Source of the DNA: Arachis hypogaea
Taxonomy: Eukaryota > Streptophyta > Magnoliopsida > Fabales > Fabaceae
Length of the DNA stretch: 64,000 bases
Direction: 5' to 3'
NCBI RefSeq assembly: GCF_003086295.3
Contig: NC_092041.1
Coordinates: forward strand, 94,699,827 to 94,763,826
A program made the position numbers and the translations under genes. Shown here piece after piece: positions 19,721-61,800 of this stretch (position 1 is the stretch's first letter; every line of letters starts with the position of its first letter). Under the pieces are notes generated by a model. That model did no database searches. It was given only the letters and a program-made list of their open reading frames with translations, and was not told where the DNA came from.

Positions 19721-21244
19721 TGGTGCACGAAATTGCAATCACACTTTTGCAATCCCGCACAACTAACCAGCAAGTGCACTGGGTCATCCAAGTAATACCT
19801 TACGTGAGTAAGGGTCGATCCCACGGAGATTATCGGCTTGAAGCAAGCTATGGTTATCTTGTAACTCTTAGTCAGGATATCAATAATTATCAGGGGTGAT
19901 TGTAAAAAGCAAAAGAACATGAAATAAGTACTTGTTTTGCAGTAATGGTGAACAGGTTGAGGTTTTGGAGATGCTCTATCTTCTGAAGCTCTGCTTTCCT
20001 ACTGTCTTCTTCTTCAAGCACGCAAGGCTCCTTCCATGGCAAGCTGTATGTAGGGTTTCATTGTTGTCAATAGCTACCTCCCATCCTCTCAGTGAAAATG
20101 TTCAACGCGCCCTGTCACGGCACGGCTAATCATCTGTCGGTTCTCAATCGGGTTGGAATAGAATCCAATGATTCTTTTGCGTTTGTCACTAACGCCCAGC
20201 CCTCAGGAGTTTGAAGCTCGTCACAGTCATTCAATCCTTGAATCCTACTCAGAATACCACAGACAAGGTTTAGACCTTCCGGATTCTCTTGAATGCCGCC
20301 ATCAATTCTAGCTTATACCACGAAGATTCTGATTAAGGAATCCAAGAGAAATCTACTCAATCTAAGGTAGAACAGAGGTGGTTGTCAGGCACACGTTCAT
20401 AGTTGAGAATGATGATGAGTGTCACGGATCATCACATTCATCAGGATTAGGAACAAGTGATATCTTAGAATGGAAGCAAGCATGATTGAATGAAAAATAA
20501 TAGTAATTGCATTAATCCATCAAGACACAGCAGAGCTCCTCACCCCCAACCATGGGGTTTAGAGACTCATGCTGTAGAAGATACAATGAGAAATGTGTAA
20601 AGTGTCATGAGGTACAGATACAATATCAAAAGGTCCTATTAATAGTGAACTAGTAACCTAGGGTATACAGAAATGAGTAAATGACATAAAAATCCACTTC
20701 CGGGGTCCACTTGGTGTGTGCTTGGGCTGAGCATTGAAGCTTTCATGTGTAGAGACTTTTTCTGGAGTTAAACGCCAGCTTTTGTGCCAGTTTGGGCGTT
20801 TAACTCCAATTTTTGTGCCAGTTCCGGCGTTAAACGCTGGGAATTCTGAAGCTGATTTGCAACGCCCGTTTGGGCCATCAAATCTCGGGCAAAGTATGGA
20901 CTATTATACATTTCTGGAAAGCCCAGGATGTCTACTTTCCAACGCAATTGAGAGCGCGCCAATTGGGCTTCTGTAGCTCCAGAAAATTTACTTCGAGTGC
21001 AGGGAGGTCAGAATCCAACAGCATCTGCAATCCTTTTTCAGCCTCTGAATCAGATTTTTTGCTCAGGTCCCTCAATTTCAGCCAGAAATTACCTGAAATC
21101 ATAGAAAAACACACAAACTCATAGTAAAGCCTAGAAAAGTAAATTTTAAATAAAAACTAATAAAAACATACTAAAAACTAACTAAAATGTACTAAAAACA
21201 TACTAAAAATAGTGCCAAAAAGCATATAAATTATCCGCTCATCA
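19721..21244 (-). repeat. 3' LTR of element D (1524 bp)
   Basis: Ends TGGTGCACGA...CCGCTCATCA. It is near-identical to 27631-29153. The former TATA position reads CTATTAATAG where E and C have CTATTTATAG, so the core promoter may be weakened. Three 31-bp-spaced palindromes start at 20762, 20793 and 20824, just upstream of that position. Confidence 0.88.
20762..20841. repeat. 31-bp-period palindrome array in the U3 of element D
   Basis: Three units start at 20762, 20793 and 20824, an exact 31-bp step: GGAGTTAAACGCC, GGCGTTTAACTCC and GGCGTTAAACGCT. The first two are perfect reverse complements of each other. The array lies about 117 bp upstream of the TATA position. The 5' LTR has the same array at 28672, 28703 and 28734. 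Confidence 0.85.
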
Positions 21245-22703: not shown

Positions 22704-22875
22704 CTGGCGTTAAACGCCAGGCTGGTGGCCATTTCTGGCGTTTAACGCCAGCTTGGTGCCCATTCCTGGCGTTTAACGCCAGTCTGGTGCCCCTTTCTGG
22801 CGTTAAACGCCCAGAATGGTGCCAGACTGGGCGTTAAACGCCCATTTGCTGCCCTTACTGGCGTTTAAATGCCAG
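22704..22875. repeat. 31-bp-period palindrome array in the 3' region of element D
   Basis: Six palindromes start at 22704, 22735, 22766, 22797, 22829 and 22858 (steps 31, 31, 31, 32, 29). The core is CTGGCGTTTAACGCCAG with variants CTGGCGTTAAACGCCC and GGGCGTTAAACGCCC. The roughly 14-bp spacers are similar to each other (TGGTGCCC-like). Element E has the same six-unit array at 51674-51844. Confidence 0.9.
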
Positions 22876-23077: not shown

Positions 23078-26000
23078 TCACAGATACTCAGAGCCATGTT
23101 GGAACCTCCCAACACCAAACTTAGAGTTTGAATGTGGGGGTTCAACACCAAACTTAGAAGTTGGTTGTGGCCTCCCAACACCAAACTTAGAGTTTGACTG
23201 TGGGGGCTCTGTTTGACTCTGTTTTGAGAGAAGCTCTTCATGCTTCCTTTCCATGATTACAGAAGGAGAACCTTGAGTCTTATAGTTTGCACTGTCTGCA
23301 AGCCACGGAGCTTCCTGAATAGCAAATAATTGCTCATCTGGAAAGGTTTCAGAGATCTCAGTAGGAGGGAGGGATGCTCCTGCTACTGGTTCTATCCGGG
23401 ACAGGTGATCAGCTACTTGATTCTCTGTCCCTTTTTTGTCTCTTATTTCTATATCAAACTCTTGCAGAAGCAACACCCATCTTATGAGCCTGGGTTTTGA
23501 ATCCTGCTTTGTGAGTAGATATTTAAGAGCAGCATGGTCAGTGTACACAATCACTTTTGATCCTACTAAATAAGATATGAACTTGTCAATGGCATAAACC
23601 ACTGCAAGTAACTCTTTTTCTGTGGTTGTGTAGTTCTTCTGTGCATCATTTAGAATACGGCTGCCATAATAAATGACGTGCAGAAGCTTACCATGCCTTT
23701 GTCCCAATACTGCACCAATGGCATGGTCACTGGCATCACACATTAGTTCAAATGGTAACGTCCAGTCTGGTGCAGAGATGACTGGTGCTGTGACCAGCTT
23801 AGCTTTCAGAGTCTCAAACGCCTGCAGACACTCCTTATCAAAGATAAATGGCGTGTCAGCAGCTAGCAGATTACTCAGAGGTTTGGCAATTTTTGAAAAA
23901 TCCTTTATAAACCTTCTGTAGAATCTTGCATTCCCCAGAAAGCTTCTGATTGCCTTAACATTGGTAGGTGGTGGTAATTTTTCAATTACTTCAACTTTAG
24001 CTTAATCCACCTCTATTCCCTTGTTTGAAATTTTATGCCCAAGGACAATCCCTTCAGTCACTATAAAGTGACATTTTTCCCAGTTTAAAACTAGGTTAGT
24101 CTCTTGGCATCTTTTCAGAACAAGTGCTAGATGGTTAAGGCAGGAGCTGAATGAGTCTCCAAATACTGAAAAGTCATCCATGAAGACTTCCAGAAATTTC
24201 TCTACCATATCTGAGAAGATAGAGAGCATGCACCTCTGAAAAGTTGCAGGTGCATTGCACAGACCAAAAGGCATCCTTCTGTAGGCAAATACTCCAGAAG
24301 GACATGTAAGTGCTGTTTTCTCTTAGTCCTGAGGATCTACTGCAATTTGGTTGTAACCTGAATAGCCATCAAAAAAGCAGTAATATTCATGACCTGCCAG
24401 TCTCTCCAGCATCTGGTCTATGAATGGTAAAGGAAAATGATCCTTCCTGGTAGCTGTGTTGAGCCTTCTGTAGTCAATACACATACGCCACCCTGTAACT
24501 GTTCTTGTAGGAACCAGTTCATTCTTTTCATTATGAACCACTGTTATGCCTCCCTTCTTGGGGACAACGTGGACAGGGCTCACCCAGGGGCTATCAGAAA
24601 TAGGATAAATAATCCCAGCCTCTAGTAACTTAGTGACCTCTTTCTGCACCACCTCCTTCATGGTTGGATTTAGCCGCCTTTGTGGTTGAACCACTGGCTT
24701 AGCATCATCCTCCAATAGGATCTTGTGCATGCATCTTGCTGGGCTAGTGCCCTTAAGATCACTTATGGACCACCCAAAAGCTATCTTATGTGTCCTTAGC
24801 ACTTGAATTAGTGCTTCCTCTTCCTGTGGATTTAAAGCAGAGCTTATGATCACTGGAAAAGTGTCACCTTCTCCCAGAAATGCATATTTCAGGGATGGTG
24901 GAAGTGGCTTGAGCTCGGGTTTAGGAGGCTTATATTCTTCTTGAGGAATTTTCAGAATTTCTTTTATTTCCTTTAGTTCCTCCAGATCAGGCTGAACATC
25001 TTTAAAGATGTCCTCTAGCTCTGATTCGAGACTTTCAGTCATATTGACCTCCTCCACCAAAGAGTCAATAATATCAGCGCTCATGCAGTCATTTGATGTG
25101 TCTGGATGCTGCATAGCTTTGACAACATTCAACTTGAACTCATTCTCATTGACTCTCAGGGTTAATTCCCCTTTTTGGACGTCAATAAGGGTTCATCCAG
25201 TTGCTAGGAAAGGTGAGAGTTGCACTCTTGTGCTCCTCCATTTCCAGCACTACAAAGTCAGTGGGAAAGCAAATGGCCCAACCTTGACAATCATGTCCTC
25301 AATTATGCCTGATGGGTATTTAATGGAGCCATCAGCAAGTTGAAGACATATCCGGGTTGGTTTGACCTCTTCAGTCAAGCCGAGCTTTCTGATAGTGGAT
25401 GCAGGTATTAGGTTGATACTTGCCCCAAGATCACATAGAGCTTTCTTGGTACAAGTACCCTCTAATGTGCATGGTATCATAAAGCTTCCTGGATCTTGAA
25501 GCTTTTCTGGTAAGCTTTTCAGAATGACTGCACTGCATTCTTCAGTGAGAAACACTTTTTCGATTTCTCTCCAATCCTTCTTATGACTTAAGATATCTTT
25601 CATGAACTTAGCATAAGAAGGTATTTGCTCAAGTGCCTCTGCAAACGGAATCTTTATTTCAAGAGTCCTTAGATAGTCTGCAAAGCGGGCAAATTGCTTA
25701 TCCTGTTTCGCTTGGCGGAGTTTCTGAGGATAAGGCATCTTGGCTTTATATTCTTCAACCTTAGTTGCTGCAGGTTTATTCCTTACAGAGGTGGTTGGAG
25801 AAGCCTTTTTAGAGGGGTTACTATCAGCACTCTCAGGTGTCTGATTCCCCATTGGCGTTTGAACGCCAGGATTGGGTGAAGAATGGGCATTTAACGCCAA
25901 CTTTTCCCCCTTTTCTGGCGTTTGAACGCCAGATCTGGGCAAGGAATGGGCGTTTAATGCCAGCTTTTCCCCTCTTTCTGGCGTTTGAACGCCAAGAGTA

Positions 26001-27000
26001 TTCCTCTCTGGGCTCTTACTGTCCTCAAAGGGATTTTGGACAGTGGTTTTGTCATCCTCTGTCAATTGTTCTTTTCTTGGCTTTTTGCTACTTTGAGCAG
26101 TGTTATTCAATGTCTTCCCACTCCTCAGTTGAACTGCTTGGCATTCTTCTGTTATCTGTTTAAATAACTGCTGTTTTGTCTGATTCAACTGCGATTCTAT
26201 GTTCTTGTTAGCAATTTTAGTCTCTTGTCTCTTGGAGTATCTCTTTAAATTCTGCTAACTGTTTTGTCATCAGGTGTAATTGCTGATTAAGCTCAACAAT
26301 TTGTTCTTGAGGATTAGGATCAGTGGCTACTGCCATAACTTCTTCTTTTGTAGAGGACTCACTGCTAGAGTACAAATATTGATTTCTAGCAATAGTATCT
26401 ATAAGCTCTTGAGCCTCTTCAATCGTCTTCCTCATATGTATAGATCCACCAGCTGAGTGGTCTAGAGACATCTGAAAACATTTCAGAGGGACATTTTCTT
26501 AGCATACCTCTATACCTCTCCCAGGCATTATAAAGGGATTCATTATCCTCTTGTTTAAAGCCTTGGATGTCCAGCCTTAGCTGTGTCATCCTTTTTGGAG
26601 GGTAAAATTGATTCAGGAATTTGTCTGATAACTGTCTCCATGTCTTTATGCTTGCTGTAGGTTGGTTATTCAACCACCTCTTGGCTTGATCTTTTACAGC
26701 AAATGAAAACAGTAATAGTCTGTAGACATCCTGATCCACCTCTTTATCATGTACTGTGTCAGTAATTTGTAAGAATTGTGCCAGAAACTCAGTAGGTTCT
26801 TCCTGTGGAAGACCGGAATACTGGCAATTTTGCTGCACCATGATAATGAGTTGAGGATTTAGCTCAAAGCTGCTTGCTTTAATGGGAGGTATACAGATGC
26901 TACTCCCATATGCAGCTGTAATGGGGTTAGCATATGACCCCAGAGTCCTTCTGGACTGCTCAATTCCACTTAGGTCTATGATGGAGAAAGGGAATATGAT
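23078..27000 (-). pseudogene. Element D gag-protease-RT-RNase H (broken, no integrase)
   Basis: Read on minus: gag from about 27000 (SRRTLGSYANP, MVQQNCQYSG, LYNAWERYRGMLRKCP); gag spacer with a 21-residue repeat; protease CDLGASINLI near 25420; RT with WRMCIDYRRLN, FFDGYSGYNQI and the catalytic FMDD (24180 region); RNase H with [24 protein letters not shown] and [11 protein letters not shown]; then PWLADSANY, the point where integrase normally follows. Instead the frame passes into [15 protein letters not shown] and an 11-residue repeat ending at 23078. In-frame TAA codons at 24323 and 24002, frameshifts near 25250 and 26419, and no clear start codon show it is inactive. The two TAA codons sit where a Gln is usual. 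Confidence 0.85.
25852..25995 (-). repeat. Palindromes inside gag of element D, 63-bp codon-phased repeat
   Basis: Palindromes start at 25852, 25884, 25915, 25947 and 25978 (steps 32, 31, 32, 31). On the minus strand they encode a 21-residue repeat, GVQTPEKGEKLALNAHS plus a four-residue linker, so two palindromes make one 63-bp codon-phased unit. Alternate units are GGCGTTTGAACGCC and GGGCATTTAACGCC. Confidence 0.8.
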
Positions 27001-27630: not shown

Positions 27631-29153
27631 TGGTGCACAAAATTGCAATCACACTTTTGCAATCCCGCACAACTAACCAGCAAGTGCACTGGGTCGTCCA
27701 AGTAATACCTTACGTGAGTAAGGGTCGATCCCACGGAGATTGTCGGCTTGAAGCAAGCTATGGTTATCTTGTAACTCTTAGTCAGGATATCAATAATTAT
27801 CAGGGGTGATTGTAAAAAGCAAAAGAACATGAAATAAGTACTTATTTTGCAGTAATGGTGAACAGGTTGAGGTTTTGGAGATGCTCTATCTTTTAAACCT
27901 CTGCTTTCCTACTGTCTTCTTCTTCAAGCACGCAAGGCTCCTTCCATGGCAAGCTGTATGTAGGGTTTTATCATTGTCAATGGCTACCTCCCATCCTCTC
28001 AATGAAAATGTTCAACGTGCCCTGTCACGGCACGGCTAATCATCTGTCGGTTCTCAATCGGGTTGGAATAGAATCCAATGATTCTTTTGCGTTTGTCACT
28101 AACGCCCAGCCCTCAGGAGTTTGAAGCTCGTCACAGTCATTCAATCCTTGAATCCTACTCAGAATACCATAGACAAGGTTTAGACCTTCCGGATTCTCTT
28201 GAATGCCGCCATCAATTCTAGCTTATACCACGAAGATTCTGATTAAGGAATCCAAGAGATATCTACTCAATCTAAGGTAGAACAGAGGTGGTTGTCAGGA
28301 ACCCGTTCATAGTTGAGAATGATGATGAGTGTCATGGATCATCACATTCATTAGGTTTAGGAACAAGTGATATCTTAGAATGGAAGCAAGCATGATTGAA
28401 TGAAAAACAGTAGTAATTGCATTAATCCATCAAGACACAGCAGAGCTCCTCACCCCCAACCATGGGGTTTAGAGACTCATGTTGTAGAAGATACAATGAG
28501 AAACGTGTAAAGTGTCATGAGGTACAGATACAATATCAAAAGGTCCTATTAATAGTGAACTAGTAACCTAGGGTATACAGAAATGAGTAAATGACGTAAA
28601 AATCCACTTCCGAGGTCCACTTGGTGTGTGCTTGGGCTGAGCATTGAAGCTTTCATGTGTAGAGACTTTTCCTGGAGTTAAACGCCAGCTTTTGTGCTAG
28701 TTTGGGCGTTTAACTCCAATTTTTGTGCCAGTTCCGGCGTTAAACACCGGGAATTCTAATGCTGATTTGCAACGCCAGTTTGGGCCATCAAATCTCGGAC
28801 AAAGTATGGACTATTATACATTGCTAAAAAGACCAGGATGTCTACTTTCCAACGCAATTGAGAGCGCACCAATTGGGCTTCTTTAGCTCCAGAAAATCCA
28901 CTTCGAGTGCAGGGAGGTCAGAATCCAACAGCATCTGTAGTCCTTTTTCAGCCTCTGAATCAGATTTTTGCTCAGGTCCCTCAATTTCAGCCAGAAATTA
29001 CATGAAATTACAGAAAAATACACAAACTCATAGTAAAGCCCAGAAAAGTAAATTTTAAATAAAAACTAATAAAAACATACTAAAAACTAACTAAAATGTA
29101 CTAAAAACATACTAAAAATAGTGCCAAAAAGCGTATAAATTATCCGCTCATCA
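27631..29153 (-). repeat. 5' LTR of element D (1523 bp)
   Basis: Ends TGGTGCACAA...CCGCTCATCA. It is the partner of 19721-21244, with only scattered differences. Palindromes at 28672, 28703 and 28734 keep the exact 31-bp step. Block GTAAGGGTCGATCCCACGGA near its 3' end is shared with LTRs of C and E. Confidence 0.88.
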
Positions 29154-42279: not shown

Positions 42280-42985
42280 CTTCGAAGAGCCCAACATGAG
42301 GAAGTCAGACTCCTACAAAAAAGTTACAAAAGATAATCCCTGAAAGAGACCTGAACAAGGTTCAAGAAAGAGGATTATCAAGTAACTCGACATGGCCCGA
42401 CGTGACATAGTCGGCCCGGAAAGATAAAGTTACAAAAGATAAATCCCTGAAAGAGACCTGAACAGGGTCCAAGAAAGAGGATTATCAAGTAACTCGACAG
42501 GGCCCGACGTGACAAAGTCGGCCTGGAAAGATAAAGTTACAAAAGATAAATTCCTGAAAGAGACCTAAACAAGGTCCAAGAAAGAGGATTATCAAGTAAC
42601 TCGACAGGGCTCCGTGACAAAGTCGGCCCGGAAAGATAAAGTTACAAAAGATAAATCCCTGAAAGAGACCTGAACAAGGTCCAAAAAAGAGGATTATCAA
42701 GTAACTCGACAGGGCCCGACGTGACATAGTCGGCCCAGAAAGATAAAGTTACAAAAGATAAATCCCTGAAAGAGACCTGAACAAGGTCCAAGAAAGAGGA
42801 TTATCAAGTAACTCGACAAAGCCCGACATGACGAAGTCGGTCCAAGATACAAAGCTACAAAGGTAATCCCTGAAAGAGCCCTGAACAAAGTCCAAGAAAG
42901 AGGATTACCGAGTAAATTGACAGGAACCGACACGATAAAGCTACCCTTGGAAGAGACCTTAAGTAAGGTCCAAAAAAGAAGCGCT
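42280..42985 (+). repeat. 106-bp tandem repeat in the Tat element
   Basis: About six copies of a unit containing GATAAATCCCTGAAAGAGAC, CCAAGAAAGAGGATTATCAA and AACTCGACAGGGCCCGAC. Copies begin near 42332, 42439, 42545, 42650, 42757 and 42863 (steps about 105-107). The outer copies are more diverged. Confidence 0.85.
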
Positions 42986-43329: not shown

Positions 43330-45263
43330 TCAAGGAGAGTCCAAAGGTTTCCCAGTAGCAGCATCCCGGGGTGAAGGAGGACGAGTTTGAAGAGGCACTG
43401 CATCTACTGTCCCATCATCCCGGTTCAGGATCTGGACATCAGGATCGGACTCAGACTGAAGGACTTCAGCTGCCTGAGAAGAAGAAGGCGGCACAACAGA
43501 GACTTTGGTAGAAGAAACAGGAGGAGGCTCAACATCATCGTCATCAGGGTCCTCGGGAATGATTTTACCATCCTTCACAACATTATCCAAGCTAAACAAG
43601 GCAAGGTCAGCCTCCGGGGCAATAACCCGAACCTGTTTCTTCAGGTTCTCATAGGCAGCAGTTACGCTGCCCACAAGATGACCCTGGAGCTCCCTAATAA
43701 TCAACCCAGACTGACTCTAGCTCCCCCCAAAGATGCATCACTTCTCGGTAGGACGTGACATAGCTTTCTTTGTGCTTCAAAGCCACATCCTCAGCCAATC
43801 GCACAGAGGCCGCCAGGGCAAGAGAGCTGGCCTTCTCCACTTCCAGCTCCTTCTTCAGTTTAGTCACCTCCGCTTCAAACTCCTCCTTGAGACCCTTCAT
43901 CCGATCAAATTCTCGCTTAGCTTCCTCCATAAAAGCTTTGGTAGCATGCAGAGGTAGATTTTGGGCAGTACGATACAAAGCAGCTCCCATATGAGCCATC
44001 TTGACACTAATCCGAGTTATAAAATCCAAGTGACGAAGGAGAGATACATCATCCATTGAAAGAGCACCATAAGGTGCGATCTGCTGGTCCACAAAACCAA
44101 TAGGATCAAAATCTGGGGCATCTAGATTGAAAGGTTCAACAGTTCAAGGTCTTTTTGGAGGAGGAGCAGCCGAAGAAGAAACCACAGCAGCAGTAGAAGA
44201 TTGAGGGGGATCCACTAAACGGACCCGAGGTGTAGGGATCATTCTCCTCGGGCCAGGAGAGCTCGGCACGGATGGCTTCAAAGGAGATTGGGAAGTTCCT
44301 TCCCCATTAGCCCGGGCCGAGATGTTTTGAGCCGCAGTAGCTTTTCTCGCCTTCTTGAAGGCCTTCATTGCATCATTATTCTTGGCCATCTCTGCAAAAT
44401 GAAAAACAATAATTTATCACGCCAGGAAGTAAGTAGGAGAAAAAAAGATAACAAGATATATCAAGGCAGTACCCAAAGCAGTTCGAATAAGGGACAGATC
44501 TCCCAAAGACTTTTTAGTATCCAAGTGAGGAGGTTCTCCCCAAATATCCTCCAAAACACTCATAAAGGACTGCTCGACCTCGCTCAACATCTCCCAAGTA
44601 TATCGGGATACCACTACGTTCTTCTGCCACTCTAAGGGAAAGCAGGGCTCATTATTTTCATCCAGAAAGAAAGGTCGGGCTCCTTCAACAGCCCAGACCT
44701 TAAAGAAGTAGTTCTTAAAATCCCGAAAAGATTCATCATACATGAAAAAAAACCTTTTGCCCCTGGGCAGACCTAAAAGAAATCCAAGAAGCTTTCTTCT
44801 TGGTAGTCCCAGGTTTGGTCAACACAAAAAGATACAGAAAAAGAGTTTGAGAAGGCGTAACACCAAATTCTTGACAAACAAGCTGAAAAATCTTGATGAA
44901 GCCCCATGAATTCGGATGGAGCTGCGAAGGGGCTACATTACAAGACCATAACAGGTCAGTTTCAAAAGAAGTAAAAGGAAAGGTGATGTTCATTTGGCTA
45001 AAAAAGAAGTCATAAGCATAGAAGAAGGGACGCTCCCCCTGGATCAAGACTAGGAAGCAGACTCTATCGCCAGAATCAGGTGCTACCAACTCATAATTGC
45101 CCTCCTGATCTGCACTGCTACAGACACGATGATGCTTTTTAAGCATCGCACAAAATTCTAAATCAATTAAAGAAACACACAACAAGACAAGAGAGTCCAG
45201 CCAATCGGACATCCCTTCGGGAACCTCAAAAGAGGCCTCGACAATATTTTTTCGGGAAGACAT
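43330..45263 (-). pseudogene. Antisense ORF of the Tat element (broken, with its own intron)
   Basis: On the minus strand, starting MSSRKNIVEASFEV at 45263. The product has ECC-free globular parts (PNSWGFIKIFQLVCQEFGV, SYDESFRDFKNYFFKVW), then an intron at about 44473-44394 with GTACTG...TTTTGCAG borders, a Ser/Pro-rich linker, and a coiled-coil tail (EEFEAEVTKLKKELEVEKASSLALAASVRLAED). It ends near 43330. A T-homopolymer shift near 44745, TGA after PPPKRP near 44145, and an indel near 43720 break the frame. Similar antisense ORFs with transposase-like names are known in Tat/Retand elements; function unknown. Confidence 0.7.
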
Positions 45264-46272
45264 GGCCAACTAATCCTACAAAGCAAGAAAAAATATTGGG
45301 TTACTAAAAAGGTAAAGACATCCCAGACGAAATCAAAACAACTTGGACAGCACATTCCAGCGTGGTACAAATAAAAAGGAAAATCCCAGGACACAACCCA
45401 GAGTCCAGGGGCATCCTTTGGAGGTAATCAGGGAATAAAGATTCAGGAAAATCCACATGACTAATGTCTCAGCAAAAACCCTTTTCAAGAAAAAACTAAC
45501 GTCTCAGTAGAAACCCTTTCCAAGAAAAACAAACCCAAAGAAGATAAAAAAATCCATCAAAAGGAGCAAACTCTCTCAAAAAAAACAAAGTTCAACAAAA
45601 CAGGAGTGGCATTTGAAGCCCTAAAAAGCAAAATTAGGAGAAAACACCCAGAAGCATACATAAAGGCAATAAGAAGACCAGAAGGCATGCATCACAGTGA
45701 TAAACCGAGCGTGATAATATACAAAGATCCAAGCTTTCCAACATACACTCAGTCAGAACTTCAAAAAAACAGATACGGAGTAGCAAAATAGACGACGGAA
45801 GAAAAAGAAAAACCAACCTGAAAAAGGAGAAGAATGCGGAAGAGGGTTGAAGACAAAGAGGCCAGAAGCTGCCGTCGGAAGCACTCACGATCGCCGAAAC
45901 CACGTTGAGACACCAAGAAACATAAGCTTTCAGGGGAAAACAAAAGTGAGAAAGAAAAGAGGAAGTTACTGAAAGGAGAAAAAACCGTCTCCGTGTGTGA
46001 AGTTCAAAATAAAAGAAGCAAGAGAAACGGGGCATTGAAAACCAATTAATGGGGGCATTAAAAACCCTCGCGCCTTCCCAAGGCCAGGGCACTAAATGCA
46101 AAAGCACGCGCTTTCAGAGGAAACGGAACAAAAACGTTCCGCATTCAAAAAAGGAGAACTCTACAAAAAGAAATCGATAAAATGCTCGAGTTCGACTTCA
46201 CCAAAGAAGGATCAAAGTCCTAAAACTAAACACTCGACCTCAAAAAGGAAGACCAAGCTCGAGCAGGGGCAC
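45264..46272 (+). other. Non-coding region before the Tat 3' LTR
   Basis: A-rich on the plus strand, no ORF supported. It ends in GAGCAGGGGCAC just before the LTR, a possible polypurine tract. Confidence 0.45.
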
Positions 46273-47309: not shown

Positions 47310-48969
47310 TGGTTCACGAAATTATGATCATCAATGGTGCCATCAACATGGTACGCTCAATTGCAATCTCAACTCTTTATCACAACTTCGCACAACTAAC
47401 CAGCAAGTGCACTGGGTCGTCTAAGTAATAAACCTTACGCGAGTAAGGATCGACCCCACGGAGATTGTTGGTATGAAGCAAGCTATGGTCATCTTGTAAA
47501 TCTCAGTCAGGCGGATTCAAATGGTTATGGAGGATTAATGATTAAAAGATGAATAAGACATAAAATAAAGATAGAGATCATATTTATGTAATTCATTGGT
47601 GAGAATTTCAGATAAGCGTATGGAGATGCTTTGTCCCTTCCGTCTCTCTGCTTTCCTACTGTCTTCATCCAATCCTTCTTACTCCTTTCCATGGCAAGCT
47701 GTATGTTGGGCATCATCGTTGTCAATGGCTACAGTCCCGTCCTCTCAGTGAAAATGTTCAACGCGCTCTGTCACAGCACGGCTATTCATCTGTCGGTTCT
47801 CGATCATGTCAGAATAGAATCCAGTGATTCTTTTGCGTCTGTCACTAACGCCCCACAATCACGAGTTTGAAGCTCGTCACAGTCATTCAATCCCTGAATC
47901 CTACTCAGAATACCACAGACAAGGTTTAGACCTTCCGGATTCTCAAGAATGGCCGCCAATGGATTCTAGCTTATACCACGAAGATTCTGATTAAGGAATC
48001 CAAGAGATATCCACTCAATCTAAGGTAGAACGGAGGTGGTTGTCAGGCACACGTTCATAGGTGAGAATGATGATGAGTGTCACAGATCATCACATTCATC
48101 AAGTTGAGGAACAAGTGATATCTTAGAACAAGAATAAGCTGAATTGAATAGAAGAACAATAGTAATTGCATTAATACTCGAGGTACAGCAGAGCTCCACA
48201 CCTTAATCTATGGTGTGTAGAAACTCTACCGTTGAAAATACATAAGAACAAGGTCTAGGCATGGCCGAATGGCCAGCCTCCCAAAGAGGGTTTAATCATA
48301 AAAATATGATCAAAAGATGATCCGAAGATTGAAAGATTCCCCCTAATACAATAGCAAAATATCCTATTTATAGAGAACTAGTAGCCTAAGGTTTACAGAA
48401 ATGAGTAAATGACGTAAAAATTCACTTCCGGGCACACTTGGTGTGTGATTGGGCTGAGCATTGATGCTTCTATGTGTAGATACTTTTCTTGGAGTTAAAC
48501 GCCAGCTTTTGTGCCAGTTTGGGCGTTTAACTCCCACGTTTGTGCCAGTTCCGGCGTTTAACGCCAGGAATTCTGAAGCTGACTTGGAACGCCTGTTTGG
48601 GCCATCAAATCTTGGGCAAAGTATGGACTATTATATTTTTCTGGAAAGCCCTGGATGTCTACTTTCCAACGCAATTGAGAGCGCACCAATTGGGCTTCTG
48701 TAGCTCCAGAAAATCCACTTCAAGTGTAAGGAGGTCAGAATCCAACAGCATCTGCAGCTCTTTTCAGCCTCTGAATCATATTTTTGCTCAGGTCTCTCAA
48801 TTTCAGCCAGAAAATACTTGAAATCATAGAAAAACACACAAACTCATAGTAAAGTCCAGAAAAGTGAATTTTAAATAAAAACTAATAAAAATATAATAAA
48901 AACTAACTAAAATATACTAAAAGCATACTAAAAATAATGCCAAAAAGCGTATAAATTATCCGCTCATCA
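47310..48969 (-). repeat. 3' LTR of element E (1660 bp)
   Basis: Ends TGGTTCACGA...CGCTCATCA. TATAAATA (minus) at 48365-48372. A palindrome array upstream starts at 48489, 48520 and 48551 (exact 31-bp step). Shared block with D near the 3' end. Confidence 0.9.
48489..48568. repeat. 31-bp-period palindrome array in the U3 of element E
   Basis: GGAGTTAAACGCC, GGCGTTTAACTCC and GGCGTTTAACGCC at 48489, 48520 and 48551. They lie about 117 bp upstream of the TATA box. The 5' LTR has the equivalents at about 57333-57413. Confidence 0.85.
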
Positions 48970-50024: not shown

Positions 50025-51169
50025 TTAGTGATGGCGGCTTGTTCTTCCTCTTGAAGATCTTATGGAGTGCTTGAGCTCCTCAATGTCTCTTCCTTGCCTT
50101 TGTTGCTCCTCTCTCATGATTCTTTGATCTTCTCTAATTTCACGGAGGAGGATGGAATGTTCTTGGTGCTCCACCTTTAGTTGTCCCATGTTGGAACTCA
50201 ATTCTCCTAAGGAGGTGTTGATTTGCTCCCAATAGTTTTGTAGAGAAAAGTGCATCCCTTGAGGCATCTCAAGGATTTCATGATGAGGAATTTCCTCATG
50301 TCCATGAGTGGGATCTCTTGTTTGCTCCATCCTCTTCTTAGTGATGGGCTTGTCCTCATCAATGAGGATGTCTCCCTCTATGTTAATTCCAACTGAATTA
50401 CAGAGGTGACAAATGAGATGAGGGAAGGCTAACCTTGCCAAGCTAGAGACTTGTCCGCCACCTTATAAAGTTCTTGGAATATAACCTCATGAACTTCTAC
50501 TTCCTCTCCAATCATGATGCTATGAATCATGATAGCCCGGTCTATATTAGCTTCGGACCGGTTGCTAGTGGAAATGATTGAGTGTTGGATAAACTCCAAC
50601 CATCCCCTAGCCACGGGTTTGAGGTCATGCCTTCTCAGTTGAATCGGCTTCCCTCTTGAATCTCTCTTCCATTGAGCGCCCTCTTCACAAATGTCTATGA
50701 GGACTTGGTCCAACCTTCGATCAAAGTTGACCCTTCTGGTGTAGGGGTGTTCATCTCCTTGCATCATGGGCAAGTTGAATGCCAACCTTACATTTTCCGG
50801 ACTAAAATCTAAGCATTTTTCCCGAACCATTGTAAGCTAATTCTTTGGGTCCGGGTTCACACTTTGATCATAGTTCTTGGTGATCCATGCATTGGCATAG
50901 AACTCTTGAACCATTAAGATTCCGACTTGTTGAATGGGATTGGTAAGAACTTCCTAACCTCTTCTTTAGATCTCATGTCGGATCTCTGGATATTCACTCT
51001 TTTTGAGTTTGAAAGGGACCTCGGGGATCACCTTCTTCATGGCCACAACTTCATAGAAGTGGTCTTGATGCACCCTTGAGATGAATCTCTCCATCTCCTA
51101 TGACTCGGAGGTGGAAGCTTTTGCCTTTCCTTTCCTCTTTCTAAAGGTTTCTCCGGCCTTAGGTGACAT
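50025..51169 (-). pseudogene. Element E ORF3 ('putative plant transposon protein'-like)
   Basis: The minus strand starts MSPKAGETFRKRKGKAK at 51169. The core contains CLDFSPENVRLAFNLP, YTRRVNFDRRLDQVLIDIC, RRHDLKPVARGWLEFIQHS and SIMIGEEVEVHEVIFQELYK, then MARLAFPHLICHLC and a Glu/Arg-rich coiled-coil end, SSRGRTSRHH with TAA at 50025. Stops near 51100, 50945 and 50835 and a frame change near 50435 break it. The core resembles a domain seen in other Athila-like ORF3 products. The role is unknown; an envelope function is not supported, because no signal peptide or membrane segment was seen. Confidence 0.65.
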
Positions 51170-51673: not shown

Positions 51674-51844
51674 CTGGCGTTAAACGCCGGGCTGCTGCCC
51701 TTTTCTAGCGTTAAACGCCAGTTTCTTGCCCATTCCTGGCGTTAAACGCCAGTTTGGTGCCTCTTTCTGGCGTTAAACGCCCATAATGGTGCCAGACTGG
51801 GCGTTAAACGCCCATTTGCTGCCCTTACTGGCGTTTAAACGCCA
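51674..51844. repeat. 31-bp-period palindrome array in the 3' region of element E
   Basis: Six palindromes start at 51674, 51705, 51736, 51767, 51799 and 51828 (steps 31, 31, 31, 32, 29), the same steps as in element D (22704-22875). Confidence 0.9.
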
Positions 51845-51984
51845 ACAAGTTTTTCCTCCAGGGTGTGCTGTTTTTCATTCTGTTTTTCATTCTGTTTTTG
51901 CTTTTTCAATTGTTTTTATAACTTCACATGATAATCAACCTATAGAAAACATAAAATAACAATGGAAAATAGATAAATATAACA

Positions 51985-52000
51985 TTGGGTTGCCTCTCAA
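51985..52000 (-). promoter_or_regulatory. Conserved hairpin of Athila-type elements (copy in E)
   Basis: The minus strand reads TTGAG-AGGCAA-CCCAA. One stem pair is lost relative to element D (TTGGG). Confidence 0.4.
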
Positions 52001-52049
52001 CAAGCGCTTTTTTAATGTCAGTAGCTTGACAGTGGGTTCTCATGGAGCC

Positions 52050-54389
52050 TCACAGATGTTCAGAGTAATGTTGGAACCTCCCAACACCAAACTTAGAGTT
52101 TGAATGTGGGGGTTCAACACCAAACTTAGAATTTGGTTGTGGCCTCCCAACACTAAACTTAGAGTTTGACTGTGGGGGCTCTGTTTGACTCTATTTTGAG
52201 AGAAGCTCTTCATGCTTCCTCTCTATGGTTACAGAGGGATATCCTTGAGCCTTAAACACAAAGGATTCTTCATTCACTTGAATGATCAATTCTCCTCTGT
52301 CAACATCAATCACAACCTTTGCTATGGCTAGGAAAGGTCTGCCAAGGATGATGGATTCATCCATGCACTTCCCAGTCTCTAGGACTATGAAATCAGCAGG
52401 GATGTAATGGTCTTCAATCTTTACCAGAACATCCTCTACAAGTCCATAAGCTTGTTTTCTTGAATTGTCTGCCATCTCTAGTGAGATTCTTGCAGCTTGT
52501 ACCTCAAAGATCCCTAGCTTCTCCATTACAGAGAGAGGCATGAGGTTTATGCTTGACCCTAGGTCACATAGAGCCTTCTCGAAGGTCATGGTTCCTAATG
52601 TGCAAGGTATTGAGAACTTTTCAGGGTCCTGTCTCTTTTGAGGTAATCTCTGCCTAGTCAAGTCATCCAGTTTTTTGGTGAGCAAAGGGGGTTCGTCCTC
52701 CCATGTCTCATTACCAAATAACTTGTCATTTAGCTTCATGATTGCTCCAAGGTACTTAGCAACTTGCTCTTCAGTGACATCTTCGTCCTCTTCAGAGGAA
52801 GAATACTCATCAGAGCTCATGAATGGCAGAAGTAAATCCAATGGGATCTCTATGGTCTCAGTGTGAGCCTCAGATTCCCATGGTTCTTCATTAGGAAACT
52901 CATTGGAGGCCAGTGGACGTCCATTGAGGTCTTCCTCAGTGGCGATCACTGCCTCTTCCTCCTCTCCAAATTCGGCCATGTTGATGGCCTTACACTCTCC
53001 TTTTAGATTCTCTTCTGTATTGATTGGAAGAGTACTAGGAGGGAGTTCAGTAACTTTCTTACTCAGCTGACCCACTTGTGCCTCCAAGTATCTAATGGAG
53101 GACCTTGTTTCAGTCATGAAACTTTGAGTGGTTTTGATTAGATCAGAGACCATAGTTGCTAAGTCAGAGTGGCTCTACTTAGAATTCTCTGTCTGTTGCT
53201 GAGAAGATGATGGAAAAGGCTTGCCATTGCTAAACCTGTTTCTTCCACCATTATTGTTGTTGAAACATTGTTGAGGTCTCTGTTGATCCTTCCATAAGAG
53301 ATTTGGATGATTTCTCCATGAAGGATTATAGGTGTTTCCATAGGGTTCTCCCATGTAATTCACCTCTTCCATTGATGGGTTCTCAGGATCATAAGCTTCT
53401 TCTTCAGATGAAGCGTCCTTAGTACTGCCTGGTGCAGCTTGCATTTCAGACAGACTTTGAGAAATCATATTGACTTGCTGAGTCAATATTTTGTTCTGAG
53501 CCAATATGGCATTCAGAGTATCAATCTCAAGAACTCCTTTCTTCTGATTCATCCCATTGTTCACAGGATTCCTTTCAGAAGTGTACATGAATTGGTTATT
53601 TGCAACCATTTCAATGAGTTCTTGAGCTTCTGCAGGCGTCTTCTTCAGATGAAGAGATCCTCCAGCAGAGCTGTCCAATGACATCTTGGACAGTTCAGAT
53701 AGACCATCATAGAAGATACCTATGATGCTCCATTCAGAAAGCATGTCAGAAGGACATTTTCTGATCAATTGTTTGTATCTTTTCCAAGCTTCATAGAGGG
53801 ATTCACCTTCCTTCTATCTGAAGGTTTGGACTTCCACTCTAAGCTTACTTAATTTTTGAGGTGGAAAGAACTTTGCCAAGAAGGCATTGACTAGCTTTTC
53901 CCAAGAGTTCAGGCTTTCTTTAGGTTGTGAGTCCAACCATATTCTAGCTCTGTCTCTTACAGCAAAAGGGAATAGCATAAGTCTGTAGACCTCAGGGTCA
54001 ACCCCATTGGTCTTGACAGTGTCACAGATTTGCAAGAATTCAGCTAAAAACTGATGAGGATCTTCCAATGGAAGTCCATGGAACTTGTAATTCTGTTGCA
54101 TTAGAGAAACTAATTGAGGCTTAAGCTCAAAGTTGTTTGCTCCAATGGCAGGGATAAAGATGCTTCTCCCATAGAAGTCAAGAGTAGGTGCAGTAAAGTC
54201 ACCCAGCACCTTCCTTCCATTGTTGGCATTGTTGTTGTTTTCGGCTGCCATGTCTTCTTTTTGTTTGAAGATTTCTGTTAGGTCCTCTACAAAGAGTAGT
54301 GCTTTAGCTTCTCTTAGCTTTCTCTTCAAGGTCCTTTCAGGTTCAGGGTCAGCCTCAACAAGAATGCTTTTGTCTTTGCTCCTGCTCAT
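52050..54389 (-). pseudogene. Element E gag-protease in one 779-codon frame with three TAG codons
   Basis: On the minus strand from ATG 54389 (MSRSKDKSILV) to TGA 52050 the frame is continuous. It contains the gag core (NNFELKPQLVSLMQQNYKF, DPEVYRLMLFPFAVRDRA), the spacer (YNPSWRNHPN), protease CDLGSSINLMPL and ESIILGRPFLA, then KHEELLSK and an 11-residue repeat tail KFGVG. The only breaks are TAG at 53814, 53175 and 52191. At 52191 element D has CAG. No RT or later domain follows. Gag and protease could form particles if the stops were absent or suppressed. Confidence 0.85.
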
Positions 54390-56130
54390 ATGAAAGATTA
54401 GAGAACAAGAAAATATGGAATCCTCTATGTCATAGTATAGAGATTCCTTGAGATGTCAGAGGAAAAGAAGAATAGAAGGAGAAGGTAGAAGAAGAGGAAT
54501 TCGAACTTATCAAGAGAGATAGAGTTCGAATTGTTGATAGTGGAGGAGTGTTAGTCCTTAAATAGAAGGATGTGAGAAGAGGGGAAGAATTTTCAAAAAT
54601 AAATTAAAAGATTTTGAGGAAATTTTGAAAAATTGAAGAATGATTTTCGAAAATTAAAGTTGGGAAAGAAATAAAGTGATTTTTGAAAAAGATTTTGAAA
54701 TTAGAAATCAAAAAGATTGAAAATTATTTGGAAAAAGATGTGATTAAGAAGATATGATTGAAGAGTTATGGTTTTAAAAAGATATGATTGAAAAGATATG
54801 ATTGAAAAACAATTTAAAAAGATTTGATTTTTAAAATTAATGACTTGGCTAACAAGAAATTTAAAGGATATGATCCAAACATTAAACCTTTCTTAACAGA
54901 AAAGGCAACATACTTGAAATGTTGAATCAAATCATTAATTGTAGGCAAGTACTTTTGAGAATGGAAAGAAATTGATTTGAAAATATATGATTGAAAAGAT
55001 ATGGTTTGAAAAAGATTTGATTTTGAAAAATTATGAAAAATTGAAAAAAAATTTGGATTAAAAACAAAATCTTCCCTCTTGTATCATCCTGGCGTTAAAC
55101 GCCCAGAATGGTATCCATTCTGGCGTTTAACGCCCAAAATGCTACCCTTTTGGGCGTTAAACGCCCAGCCAGGTACCCTGGCTGGCATTTAAATGCCAGT
55201 TTTCCTTCTTCACTGGGCGTTTTGAACGCCCAGCTTTTTTCTGTGTAATTCCTCTGCTGTATGTTCTGAATCTTCAATTCTCTGTATTATTGACTTGAAA
55301 AGACACAAATTAAAATTTTTTTTGAATTTTTAATGATGAGTAATAATCAAAATGCAAGTAAGATCAAATAAACAATGCATGCAAGACACCAAACTTAGAA
55401 GTTTGTATACTATTGACACTAACAAATTGAGAATGCATATGAGAAACAACAAAACACTCAAGACAAGAGAATTTAAAGATCAGAGCAAGGAAATCATCAA
55501 GAACAACTTGAAGATTAATGAAGAACATAATGCATGTAATTTTCGAAAATTAGAAGAATAAAGACATGCAATTGACACCAAACTTAAAATTAGACACTAG
55601 ACTCAAACAAGAAACATAAAAAATATTTTTTATTTTAAGATTTTATAAAAAAAATTTTGTGCTTTTTCAAAAATTGAGTGGAAAAGAAAAACAAGGGTTC
55701 AAAATTCTTAATGAGAATTCCAGGAATCATTGCAATGCTAGTCTAAGACTCCGGTCCAGGACTTAGACATGGCTTCACAGCCAGCCAAGCTTTCAGTGAA
55801 AGCTCCGGTCCAAAACACTAGACATGGCCAATGGCCAGCCAAGCTTTAGCAGATCATTGCTCACAACAGCAAAAATTGATAGAAATCAACAAGGTCTTGT
55901 GACGATAAGTTGAAACCTCAGTCCAAAAGATTAGACATGGCTTCACAGCCAGCCATACTTCAACAAATCATCATGAAACTCTAGAATCCATTCTCAAAAA
56001 CTCTAAAGAACAAAATAGAAATATTTTTTTGTATTTTTGAAAAATTTTCGAAAAGTAAAAAGCTTAAACATAAAATAAAATTACCTAATCTAAGCAACAA
56101 GATGAACCGTCAGTTGTCCAAACTCAAACA
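54390..56130 (-). other. Untranslated leader of element E with palindromes
   Basis: A long leader between the primer site and gag. It holds the palindrome array at 55089-55233 and two copies of the PPT-like motif (55386 and 55575). Phrases such as CAGCCAGCCAAGCTT recur at 55780-55850. No gene recognised. Confidence 0.55.
55089..55233. repeat. 31-bp-period palindrome array in the leader of element E
   Basis: Five palindromes start at 55089, 55120, 55151, 55182 and 55213, exactly 31 bp apart: CTGGCGTTAAACGCCCAG, CTGGCGTTTAACGCCC, TGGGCGTTAAACGCCCA, CTGGCATTTAAATGCCAG and CTGGGCGTTTTGAACGCCCAG. The fourth keeps its symmetry despite a changed base pair. Confidence 0.9.
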
Positions 56131-56155: not shown

Positions 56156-57812
56156 TGGTGCACGAAATTGTGATCATCAATGGCGCCATCAACATGGTAC
56201 GCTCAATTGCAATCTCAACTCTTTATCACAACTTCGCACAACTAACCAGCAAGTGCATTGGGTGGTCCAAGTAATAAACCTTACGCGAGTAAGGGTTAAT
56301 CCCACGGAGATTGTTGGTATGAAGCAAGCTATGGTCATCTTGTAAATCTCAGTCAGGCGGATTCAAATAGTTATGGAGGATTAATGATTAAAAGATGAAT
56401 AAGACATAAAATAAAGATAGAGATACTTATGTAATTCATTTGTGAGAATTTCAGATAAGCATATGGAGATGCTTTGTCCCTTCTGTCTCTCTGCTTTCCT
56501 ACTGTCTTCATCCAATCCTTCTTACTCCTTTCCATGGCAAGCTGTATGTTGGGCATCACCGTTGTCAATGGCTACAGTCCCGTCCTCTCAGTGAAAATGT
56601 TCAACGCGCTCTGTCACAGCACGGCTATTCATCTGTCGGTTCTCGATCATGTTGGAATAGAATCCAGTGATTCTTTTGCGTCTGTCACTAACGCCCCACA
56701 ATCGCGAGTTTGAAGCTCGTCACAGTCATTCAATCCCTGAATCCTACTCAGAATACCACAGACAAGGTTTAGACCTTCCGGATTCTCAAGAATGGCCGCC
56801 AATGGATTCTAGCTTATACCACAAAGATTCTGATTAAGCAATCCAAGAGATATCCACTCAATCTAAGGTAGAACGGAAGTGGTTGTCAGGCACACGTTCA
56901 TAGGTGAGAATGATGATGAGTGTCACAGATCATCACATTCATCAAGTTGAGGAACAAGTGATATCTTAGAACAAGAATAAGCTAAATTGAATAGAAGAAC
57001 AATAGTAATTTCATTAATACTCGAGGTACAGCAAAGCTCCACACCTTAATCTATGGTGTGTAGAAACTCTACTGTTGAAAATACATAAGAACAAGGTCTA
57101 GGCATGGCTGAATGGCCAGCCTCCCAAAAAGGGTTCAATCATAAAAACATGATCAAAAGATGATCCGAAGATTGAAAGATTCTCCCTAATACAATAGCAA
57201 AAGGTCCTATTTATAGAGAACTAGTAGCCTAGGGTTTACAGAAATGAGTAAATGACGTAAAAATCCACTTCCGGGCCCACTTGGTGTGTTCTTGGGCTGA
57301 GCATTGAAGCTTCCATGTGTAGAGATTTTTCTTGGAGTTAAACGCCAGCTTTTGTGCTAGTTTGGGCATTTAACTCCCACTTTTGTGCCAGTTCCGGCGT
57401 TTAACGCCGGGAATTCTGAAGCTGAATTGGAATGCCTCTTTGGGCCATCAAATCTCGGGCAAAGTATGAACTATTATATATTTCTGGAAAGCCCTGGATA
57501 TCTACTTTCCAACTCAATTGAGAGCGCGCCAATTGGGCTTCTGTAGCTTTAGAAAATCCACTTCGAGTGCAGGGAGGTCAGAATCCAACAGCATCTGCAG
57601 CCCTTTTCAGCCTCTGAATCAGATTTTTGCTCAGGTCCCTCAATTTCAGCCAGAAAATACATGAAATCACAGAAAAATACACAAACTCATAGTAAAGTCC
57701 AGAAAAGTGAATTTTAAATAAAAAATAATAAAAATATAATAAAAACTAACTAAAACATACTAAAAGCATACTAAAAACAATGCCAAAAAGCGTATAAATT
57801 ATCCGCTCATCA
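56156..57812 (-). repeat. 5' LTR of element E (1657 bp)
   Basis: Ends TGGTGCACGA...CGCTCATCA. TATAAATA at 57208-57215. The palindrome array upstream is at about 57333-57413. Confidence 0.92.
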
Positions 57813-58839: not shown

Positions 58840-61800
58840 AATTACTTGCACCCCCACGTTGACGACATTTACTACGGTTGTGGCTCTCGGCCCTGCATTG
58901 CTTACATTGCCTAGTTCCACGCAACATCCGAGTGTCCATCTCATTCAAGAAATGGGTCATCCTTGGCCGACCTTTGGATACCGTCTAAGGAATGGATTAC
59001 CTACAAATCGAGGTCCATGATAAACAGTCCATGTTGTGGGATTCTCGAGTGGCCTAAACCTAGCCATGTATACTCATCGAACTTGGTCCATCTTGTAGAC
59101 ATCGTGTACATACAATTGCCAATCCAGCCGTTGTTTTGCACAACAAGCAAACACATGTCGACACGGAAGTCAGTCAACTTTGAATTCACCACAGTCACAC
59201 CGTTGTCGATGGAGGTCCACTGCATACTCCACACCACTGGGACACTCACGCACTTCAAATACCTCATTCTGTCGGTCAAAGCAACTAACTTGGATGTTAC
59301 CCGCTACCCGTTGATTTGCATGCAGTTTGGAGGTTACAAGCTCGGAGAATACATGTCCTGAATTAATTCGAGCCTCAGTCTCGACTCTTTTTTGGGTGAA
59401 CAATTCATTAAGCATATAAAACGTTGCCTTAACAAGTGCAGTGACTGGAAGATTGCGAGCCCTTTTTAGTACCGAGTTGATGTATTCCACTAGATTGGTG
59501 GTCATATGACCCCATCGATATCCCCCATCAAATGCTAAAGCATACTGCTCACGTGGAATCCGATCCAACCAGTTGGTATAAGCCTCACCCCGCTAGCGTA
59601 GACGCTGATAACGTGTCTCTTACTCGCGAACTGTTCATGAGTATCCTGTCAATAAAAAAAAGACCCACGATAAACAACGTTCATCATAATAACTGAGTTC
59701 AAGAGTAAATGTAATCGTAACTATCATACCTATATTGACGATAAGCTTCTGCAGATACGATGCCTTGAACTTTCTCAAAAAATTGGACTCTATATGTCTG
59801 ATGCAGAACATGTGGAATGCTCTGGGAGGAGACCAAGCTCCGTTACTACGAGCAATTGCTGACCTAATGGAATCTTGCCGATCGGAGATAAGGCCCACAC
59901 CATTACATGTCATAACATGTTGTCGCAAGTTAATAAGAAAAAAGTGCCAAGCCTCAGATGTATCTCCTTCAACTATCGCAAATGCAATAGGAACGATGTT
60001 GTTGTTGCCATCCTGTGAGACTGCAACCAACAAAAAACCCTTGTATTTTCCATACAAATGAGTTTCGTCTACCTGCACTATTGGCTTGCAATGTCTGAAT
60101 ATTCTAATACAAGGGTAATAACTCCAGAAGACTCGGTGTAGTACACGAATATTAGGAACCAAATCATCTCCTGATACGCAGGCATTATTTCAAAGTGAAT
60201 AACTGCGGATGGCTCCTTGTGACACATGGCCTCAAACAATATCGGCAAGGCTTCGTACGAAGCTTCCCACCCTCTGAAAATTGACTCTACTACCTTCTGT
60301 TTTGCCAACCATGCTTTGCGATAACTTATGGTGTAGTTAAACTTTGCCTGTACTTCCACAATCACTGATTTCACCTTTATAGACAGGTCAACTTCTACCA
60401 ATGGCTTTATTGCTTCTGCAACTGTGTTGGAATCCAGCTTCGAATGATCTTGAGAAATGGTGGCCCTAGTACAGGTGTAACTAACATTGTACCTCCTTAT
60501 CTCCCAACAGAACTTTTTGGACATTTTGCTCACCCTGATCAGCAAATCACATCCTGCACCATACTGGGTGCATTTAGTATAGAATGTCGTCGGTTCTGAC
60601 TCATGTACCCGATAATCTACATCTCTGCGGATTGTATAATCTTTCATCGCCTTAATTACTACCTCCCTAGAACTGAATTCCATTCCCACGGTAAATTCAC
60701 CATCTGGCATAACGGGAAGCTTCATTGCAATCACATCACAAATTTTAGAGTTGTCAGAACTAATAATCTAATAAACTAATAATTATAGAACAATGGAAAA
60801 TGTAGTTGTCAAAATCGAGCCGGTAATCGAACCGGTCAGGTCACTGGGTCATTGGGTCACTGGTTCAACCAGTGGATCACTGGTTGAACCGATTGACCTG
60901 GTCCTATGTAAATAAAAAATAAAACAATAGTAAAAAATTTTTACTAACATTTTAAAAATATCTAGCTATTCTAAAACAATATGAAATAGGAACAATAGTA
61001 TTTTGTTAATTTCAAGGAGTTTGACCATCTTTGACCGGTTCACTTCGGATTTGAGCAGGTTGCACCGCTTCGTTGCCTTGTGTGGTCTCATCATGGGACC
61101 GGACCGGTCTAAGATCCGGTTCACCGATTTTTTGGCCGAACCGGTCAGTCCGATCGAACTGGCTATTCCGGTCCGGTTTTATTAAAAATGATGGGACATA
61201 CTACATCTCTCAGCATACATGTTTACTTCATAATTAAACATTTCACAATTACTAACTACATGCTATATTTTGCATATTTACCGTTGTCTTAACTATTTGT
61301 CCTAAACTCAAAACCCATGCACAAATCATACTTTAACAAATCTTAATTTAAATTGATGGCGCACCTGCATTTACATATTGAGGAAACTCCGATGCATGCA
61401 TGGTTTCCAAATCCAACTACCGCATGAAACTCGGCTCTACAAATGGCTGCTGGTTTGCTAGTGCATTTACCACATCCGCCATATCTGCCACCATAGCCTC
61501 GTCAGCTTGATCTTCGTCTACACCTGGATCAACGACCTCATAGTTACTTTCGAACTCTTCCTCACTATCATTGTTGTAATCTTCCAATTCAATATTTCAG
61601 TCCGCTGCAGATTGTTCGAACTCGATACACAGTTCGATGAACGATATTCGCGACCGACTTTCAAGATACACTGAAAACATTTCTTGCATGCTCGCTTCGT
61701 CGGTCACGTATTTCGTTTGAAATTGCACGAACCCACCAAAGACAGATATAGGATATCTGTACAAAATACACGACACTCTCCTAGATATTTGAGAATCCTT

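Follow-up and report, generated by a model that had tools for sequence, protein, structure and literature searches.

The question raised by a 64-kb stretch of the Arachis hypogaea genome, referred to below as the window, is why one short palindrome should recur at nearly constant intervals in several parts of the retrotransposons that it contains. The sequence GGCGTTWAACGCC recurs in U3, in the leader, in the gag-protease linker and in the region between pol and the long terminal repeat (LTR) of two Ty3/Athila-type elements, D and E, which are the two full elements read in this window and which both lie on the minus strand. The sites are arranged in arrays in which 12 near-fixed positions alternate with a spacer of almost constant length, and one of these arrays is located within coding sequence. 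On balance, we lean towards reading the arrays as phased, sequence-specific docking sites for a protein, which would act on the transcription or the silencing of the element.

At every place where a first-pass annotation of the window had reported the palindrome it is indeed present, with the cores starting 2 bp inside the positions listed there. Each element carries 3 + 3 units in the U3 parts of its two LTRs and six units in its 3' region, to which D adds five units in gag and E five in the leader, all of them on the minus strand. The U3 arrays of E are located at 57334–57408 in the 5' LTR (units at 57334, 57365 and 57396, steps of 31 and 31 bp) and at 48491–48565 in the 3' LTR (48491, 48522 and 48553), and those of D at 28674–28748 in the 5' LTR (28674, 28705 and 28736) and at 20764–20838 in the 3' LTR (20764, 20795 and 20826). 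The 3'-region array of E (51676–51843) lies between the gag-region open reading frames (ORFs) and an env-like ORF, and that of D (22706–22873) is found downstream, in the sense of the element, of the RNase H ORF; these two arrays are homologous (92.3% over a 698-base alignment). The leader array (55091–55230) is present only in E, and the coding array (25854–25993) only in D.

The abundance of the palindrome in the window is far above chance expectation. When up to three mismatches were allowed on both strands, GGCGTTWAACGCC gave 79 matches as against 5.23 expected, a number reached in none of 100 shuffles, and a scan for GC-containing dyads that made no use of the motif returned 63 centres, whereas 40 Markov shuffles gave 21.65 on average. 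Pairs of dyad centres lying 30–32.5 bp apart numbered 11 in the window, and their mean in the same shuffles was 0.025 with a maximum of 1. All matches with at most two mismatches are located in D, in E or in two related LTRs (17.1 and 19.4 kb), and a Ty3 element at ~36–46 kb with a Transposase_28 ORF has no match at this level. These two further LTRs, at ~16.1–17.2 and 18.4–19.5 kb, are 68% alike in an alignment of 1720 columns that runs beyond the LTR, and both carry related boxes on the minus strand in the form of inverted GGCGCTAAACGC ... GCATTTAGCGCC pairs, which follow each other with a 70-bp step at 17055–17157 and with 70–71-bp steps at 19371–19474. The related boxes are 0.9–1.0 kb from the estimated end of the LTR, compared to 1.0–1.2 kb for the arrays of D and E. 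A pattern of two cores separated by 14 to 22 bases had no match in viral or genome contig collections, which is unsurprising for an element of plants.

The spacing had been described as a 31-bp ruler, and its regularity is borne out by our analysis, but the quantity that stays constant is an 18-bp spacer rather than the step, because the dyad centre is not of fixed width. GGCGTT and AACGCC are separated by 1, 2 or 3 bp, which gives palindromes of 13, 14 or 15 bp and, with an 18-bp spacer added, steps of 31 to 33 bp. Of the 22 spacers counted, a number that excludes the duplicate copies in the 5' LTRs, 20 measure 18 bp and the other two, which are homologous to each other, 17 bp. The leader of E, for which a step of exactly 31 bp had been claimed four times, has steps of 31, 31, 31 and 32 bp when these are measured from the starts of the half-sites. 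The gag array of D is present as reported, and its steps are 32, 31, 32 and 31 bp, since palindromes of 14 and 13 bp take turns between spacers of 18 bp; its dyad centres are 31.5 bp apart four times. Despite their near-constant length, the spacers within the four non-LTR arrays are just 0.39–0.51 identical in sequence.

A sharp contrast between the sites and their surroundings was also observed when the units were compared with each other. The comparison was based upon 19 units (six from the 3' region of D, five from the leader of E, five from gag of D and three from the 3' LTR of E), the homologous 3' region of E, the 3' LTR of D and both 5' LTRs being left out. The 12 positions of the half-sites had a mean pairwise identity of 0.94, and 18 positions in the flanks one of 0.39 (Mann-Whitney p = 2.2e-6, to be taken as a guide value because the units are related). 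The same contrast is seen in each of the six arrays taken singly, where the half-sites are 0.83–0.97 and the flanks 0.35–0.53 identical (p from 0.012 to 7e-6), and also between arrays, where identity is 0.91–0.96 for the core and 0.33–0.44 for the flanks, with chance at about 0.25. All 28 units with a one-base gap, among which the duplicates in the LTRs and a single unit from the LTR at 19.4 kb are counted, have A or T as their central base. This footprint fits a conserved protein-binding site better than it fits a hairpin or a fresh tandem duplication, as judged from the sequence, and protein binding, as proposed in the first-pass annotation, is accordingly the best supported reading. In contrast, we give less credit to the packaging or RNA signal offered there as an option, since the core keeps its sequence instead of covarying.

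The related claim, that symmetry is kept while the bases change, holds for one core (55184, GGCATTTAAATGCC), for the reciprocal U3 units 1 and 2 (in E the near-reciprocal pair GGAGTTAAACGCC / GGCATTTAACTCC) and, to a modest degree, for the flanks, in which 54 of 108 cells at the four outer positions are paired versus 42.6 with shuffled partners (P = 0.008). As a general covariation of the core arms, however, compensatory change could not be upheld: in the same 27 distinct units, 153 of 162 cells are paired compared to 151.8 with shuffled partners (P = 0.35). What is found instead is a fixed sequence with slight outer symmetry, a pattern more in keeping with a DNA-binding site than with an RNA stem. 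Decay of CpG is a possible origin of the core variants. Once inserted, the arrays decay at the same rate as their surroundings, with 3 differences in 75 positions of the array versus 50 in 1523 of the whole LTR for the LTR pair of D, and 3 in 75 versus 69 in 1657 for that of E; it follows that the conservation acts in the source copies.

The copy in the gag-protease linker of D provides a further view of what is being conserved. Its five units encode the peptides GVQTP and LALNA in turn (GVQTP..LALNA..GVQTP..LALNA..GVQTP), and peptides that can be read as the same core, viz. GVQTP, LALNA, WRSTP and GVERP, are present in related proteins. The proteins searched were the best 120 of 2030 matches, plus one, plus the window's own. 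One relative (P0048) has the peptides GAERP, WRSAP, WRSTP, LALNA, PALNA and GVQTP, with inferred steps of 31, 30, 31, 30 and 31; as these peptides imply the same word in three reading frames, it is the nucleotide word rather than the peptide that seems to be conserved in the linker. At least three motif peptides were present in seven of the 121 proteins, including the one from the window itself, and in the other six 18 of 20 peptide steps are 10 or 11 codons, the remaining two being 20 and 21. The inferred gaps, for which the window's own protein was left out, are 18 in 27 of 34 cases, with two of 17, two of 19, one of 23 and two of 49. These numbers come from the 12 of 122 proteins that had at least one gap of 14–22, a filter which favours 18, and they are quantised by the reading frame, since the distance between given peptide types can vary only in threes; a gap of 49 equals 18 + 13 + 18 if one unit has decayed. 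The ruler is thus seen in both elements, and outside the window non-random spacing is found at the peptide level only and in one gag family.

Within the LTRs, which are 1.52–1.66 kb in length, the U3 arrays lie 405–481 bp from the start, i.e. in the upper half. The U3 array of E lies above the TATA of CTCTATAAATAGG at 48372, from which its end is 119 bp away and where the TATA word is TATAAATA; this TATA is at LTR position 598 in both LTRs, and the 5' LTR has a further TATA[AT]A at 333, above the array. The LTR of D is without TATA[AT]A and has TATTAATA at the matching place. In E, the 3'-region array precedes an env-like ORF piece (50429–50836, minus strand; PF20167, Transposase_32), which is 0.84 kb downstream of it in the sense of the element. 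Two protein records labelled Enterococcus faecalis (P0153 and P0160), from contigs of 278 and 372 bases, are 81% and 88% identical to this env-like piece over about half of its length, and they are probably plant contamination.

The 5' and 3' LTRs of D (27631–29153 and 19721–21244) are 96.7% identical and those of E (56156–57812 and 47310–48969) 95.7% identical, all four being on the minus strand. Pfam scans of D detected a gag domain (Retrotrans_gag, PF03732; 26419–27006) and RNase H (23078–24001), together with a match to reverse transcriptase (RT) at 24323–25192 that is weak and under the Pfam cut-off. The ORF at 25250–26254 (minus strand), which bears the coding array, contains the gag-protease linker and an aspartic protease (PR) domain, as indicated by the Pfam scan and its translation. 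The order of domains in D is gag, PR, RT, RNase H, and no integrase domain was found between PR and RT in the four ORFs. The order of these domains is what separates Ty1/copia from Ty3 carriers. The ORFs of E comprise two gag pieces and the env-like piece. Integrase was not found by Pfam in the four ORFs of D and five of E that were scanned, and protease and RT were also not found among the five of E; hence both elements look non-autonomous, yet they carry the arrays, and D may be a deletion derivative. Among the best 120 of 2030 matches, the named proteins closest to the D protein come from Arachis. For both elements the Athila label is plausible from their sequence features, as a TTTTTGGCGCCGTTGCCGGGGA-like primer binding site (PBS) follows the LTR of E, and a PBS of this type, an env-like PF20167 gene and long LTRs are what we take to be signs of the Athila lineage. 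In addition, the 13 bases AAGTTTGGTGTTG, read in the sense of the element, abut both 3' LTRs (21245 and 48970) and occur three times with 33-bp steps upstream of the palindrome array, in D at 23110, 23143 and 23176 and in E at 52082, 52115 and 52148. One of the E copies has 1 mismatch, and the set is reminiscent of the multiple polypurine tracts of Sireviruses.

The reading that we favour would combine these observations as follows. Athila-type Ty3 elements of Arachis would keep the arrays as cis-regulatory boxes, each site being GGCGTT-N(1–3)-AACGCC repeated with 18-bp spacing. The U3 array would be enhancer-like and placed above the TATA box, a second array would occupy the stretch between pol and the LTR, where in E it precedes the env-like gene, and extra copies would be present in the leader of E and the gag-protease linker of D. 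A two-headed factor, either dimeric or with tandem domains and supplied by the host or by the element, would bind each palindrome, and with about three helical turns per repeat neighbouring factors could cooperate. Protein binding, cooperation and an effect upon transcription or silencing are what we infer here. The first-pass proposal of dimers lined up on one face of the helix is unproven, as half-site gaps of 1–3 bp are ill-suited to a rigid dimer and 31 bp may be just the repeat unit.

A number of observations weigh against protein docking. The variable gap at the dyad centre is awkward for a rigid dimer, and locations in a leader and in coding sequence are odd for an enhancer. D retains the 3' array although the env-bearing stretch of E (~50264–51072) has no match in D, and the array may therefore not be tied to env. 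The U3 spacers are still 0.72–0.78 identical (one pair each), and U3 units 1 and 2 are imperfect. Between the homologous 3' arrays of D and E the differences number 4 of 79 in the core versus 10 of 89 in the spacers, which is not significant (Fisher p = 0.17). Furthermore, the p-values overstate the independence of the units, which in any one array are duplicates of each other by descent, and the whole is based upon two full elements.

Several of these points are shared with an explanation that needs no function, in which the palindrome was duplicated in tandem and was then spread and homogenised by slippage, template switching by RT and recombination between arrays. We regard this as unlikely, though appreciably so rather than strongly. 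Higher-order duplication did occur, since Tandem Repeats Finder reported units of 31, 62 and 63 bp, and the lack of core-arm covariation and of a significant difference between core and spacer in the D/E comparison is consistent with such an origin. Two of the four spacers in the leader of E are perfect palindromes with 9-bp arms and differing sequence (dyad centres 55113 and 55175), as template switching could yield. However, plain duplication would not leave 12 near-fixed positions beside spacers that are nearly random in sequence and nearly constant in length, and these positions hold in several contexts, one of them coding. Palindromy of the spacers was also considered as a general rule and was rejected (P = 0.80–0.87 over all spacers). 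Only the spacers of the E leader stand out, and these only if a slip of one base is permitted (P = 0.042, the top value among 24 permutations, versus P = 0.50 without a slip); those of the D 3', E 3' and D gag arrays taken alone are no more symmetrical than permuted ones (P = 0.85–1.0).

A decidedly less probable explanation is that the palindromes form hairpins in the genomic RNA and serve in dimerisation, packaging or the control of gag or env translation. Six segments of D and E were folded and are far more stable than their shuffles (z from -5.7 to -11.2), a separate fold of the leader of E gave z = -10.3, a single long stem joins U3 units 1 and 2 in the 3' LTRs of both elements, and the pairing of the flanks noted above exceeds that of shuffled partners. 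Nevertheless, perfect palindromes always fold well, and do so as DNA too (z = -11.5), and the constancy of the core argues against a stem held by pairing alone. For the related boxes at 17.1 and 19.4 kb the folding stands out less from that of shuffles (z = -2.9 and -4.1), and Rfam gave no match at gathering scores in 19000–58500.

It is very unlikely, in our judgement, that the arrays are the targets of an anti-silencing protein encoded by the element, in the manner of VANC in VANDALs, which are not LTR retrotransposons. In the parts of PMC5735166 drawn upon here, VANC targets dense arrays of short motifs, often tandem repeats, in noncoding parts of the transposable element (TE), and the arrays of D and E likewise occur in several parts of the element. 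The VANC21 motifs, however, all point the same way, and PMC5735166 makes no use of the word palindrome. A Pfam scan of the ORFs of D and E, in which VANC was not searched for specifically, named no candidate binder, and the structure model of the env-like piece is poor (mean predicted local distance difference test score, 60.8).

Slimmer still are the prospects of a proposal that rests on the methyl group which 5-methylcytosine and thymine have in common, viz. that a homeodomain factor of the HD-Zip IV-like kind reads the methylated state of the arrays as platforms. In a silenced copy with CG methylation, the factor would then meet an L1-box-like palindrome at intervals of 31 bp, and the element would be transcribed despite, or because of, methylation by the host. 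According to the portion of PMC3645734 at hand, the HD-Zip IV site GCATT(A/T)AATGC is an 11-bp palindrome with A/T at its centre, as in the core of D and E. It equals the inner core GCGTT(A/T)AACGC at 9 of 11 positions, and the two symmetric base pairs that differ are the CpG cytosines. The probability that a random palindrome agrees with a given one at no fewer than 4 of 5 arm positions is 0.016, for a comparison that was picked afterwards, and the exact HD-Zip IV site has 0 occurrences in the window; the resemblance is thus a lead. Hardly any weight is given to a hotspot of host silencing, in which transcribed palindromes would yield hairpin-derived small RNAs that feed RNA-directed DNA methylation, as has been discussed for the LTR palindromes of maize Sireviruses, for although stable hairpins with CpGs are present in the arrays and LTR palindrome motifs of three maize Copia families are called mapping hotspots of small RNAs in the passages of PMC5311732 available to us, it does not account for why the element should keep the sites and leaves the spacing and the footprint unexplained.

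The window also contains a gene of the chalcone/stilbene synthase type (3329–4309, minus strand) and a DNA-binding domain of a MuDR-type transposase (60078–60767, minus strand). A Ty3 element in it carries about 5.8 copies of a 107-bp tandem repeat (42320–42931), and the Transposase_28 ORF of this element (44736–45269, minus strand) is opposite to its gag and RT.

The first-pass annotation knew of no description of such a ruler, which was too strong a statement, as the palindromic motifs of Sireviruses, located in U3 and upstream of ENV, are of the same kind (PMC2829016, in its sections on these motifs). No paper was found that prints any of four forms of the core, and none of the titles and abstract beginnings among the matches listed mentions such an array, which falls short of proof that it is unpublished. 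A parallel with a 31-bp repeat in the U3 of Tnt1 was not confirmed, the passages of PMC3316501 giving BII boxes without a length and PMC1838419 containing none of the terms looked for. The targets of VANC in VANDALs are, similarly to the arrays of D and E, dense arrays of short motifs inside a TE that evolve by the formation of tandem repeats (PMC5735166 and PMC10398659, in part), but their binder is known and encoded by the TE, unlike the case of the palindromic arrays here. The SIRC cassettes of Arabidopsis are defined by their morphology, and no fixed 18-bp gap or footprint is given for them in the sections of PMC10342631 compared. Tandem arrays are also known from the same part of other Ty3 elements, but in the material seen these are family-specific repeats and a palindrome is named just in titles of references.

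The closest known case is the repeated motif (RM) of Sireviruses. As described in the sections of PMC2829016 on which this comparison is based, RM boxes are palindromes of 10–20 bp in many copies per element, which cluster in the upper half of the LTR, starting 200–400 bp into it and upstream of TATA, and which recur upstream of ENV and are absent where ENV is absent. The bases between the boxes differ between elements, a CGG-CCG core is present in 12 of 13 motifs, and the describers proposed a regulatory role and left the binder open (PMC2829016). The arrays of D and E resemble them in their many repeats of high identity and in their location in the upper half of the LTR, although they start just past 400 bp. 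They are not RM boxes, because their carriers are Ty3/Athila-type and not Ty1/copia and their core is GGCGTT-N(1–3)-AACGCC and not CGG-CCG, but by analogy they may work likewise. Compared to those sections of PMC2829016, in which no fixed spacing is reported, the new features are the spacer of almost always 18 bp, the Ty3 carriers, and the copies in a leader and in gag-protease coding sequence. If the arrays do bind a protein, the 18-bp gap and the 12-position footprint would provide a bait for a protein that acts on the retrotransposons of a repeat-rich crop genome. Evenly spaced palindromic boxes would then be a feature of Ty3/Athila-type elements as well as of the Ty1/copia Sireviruses, and the same box could occupy a promoter, a leader and even coding sequence.

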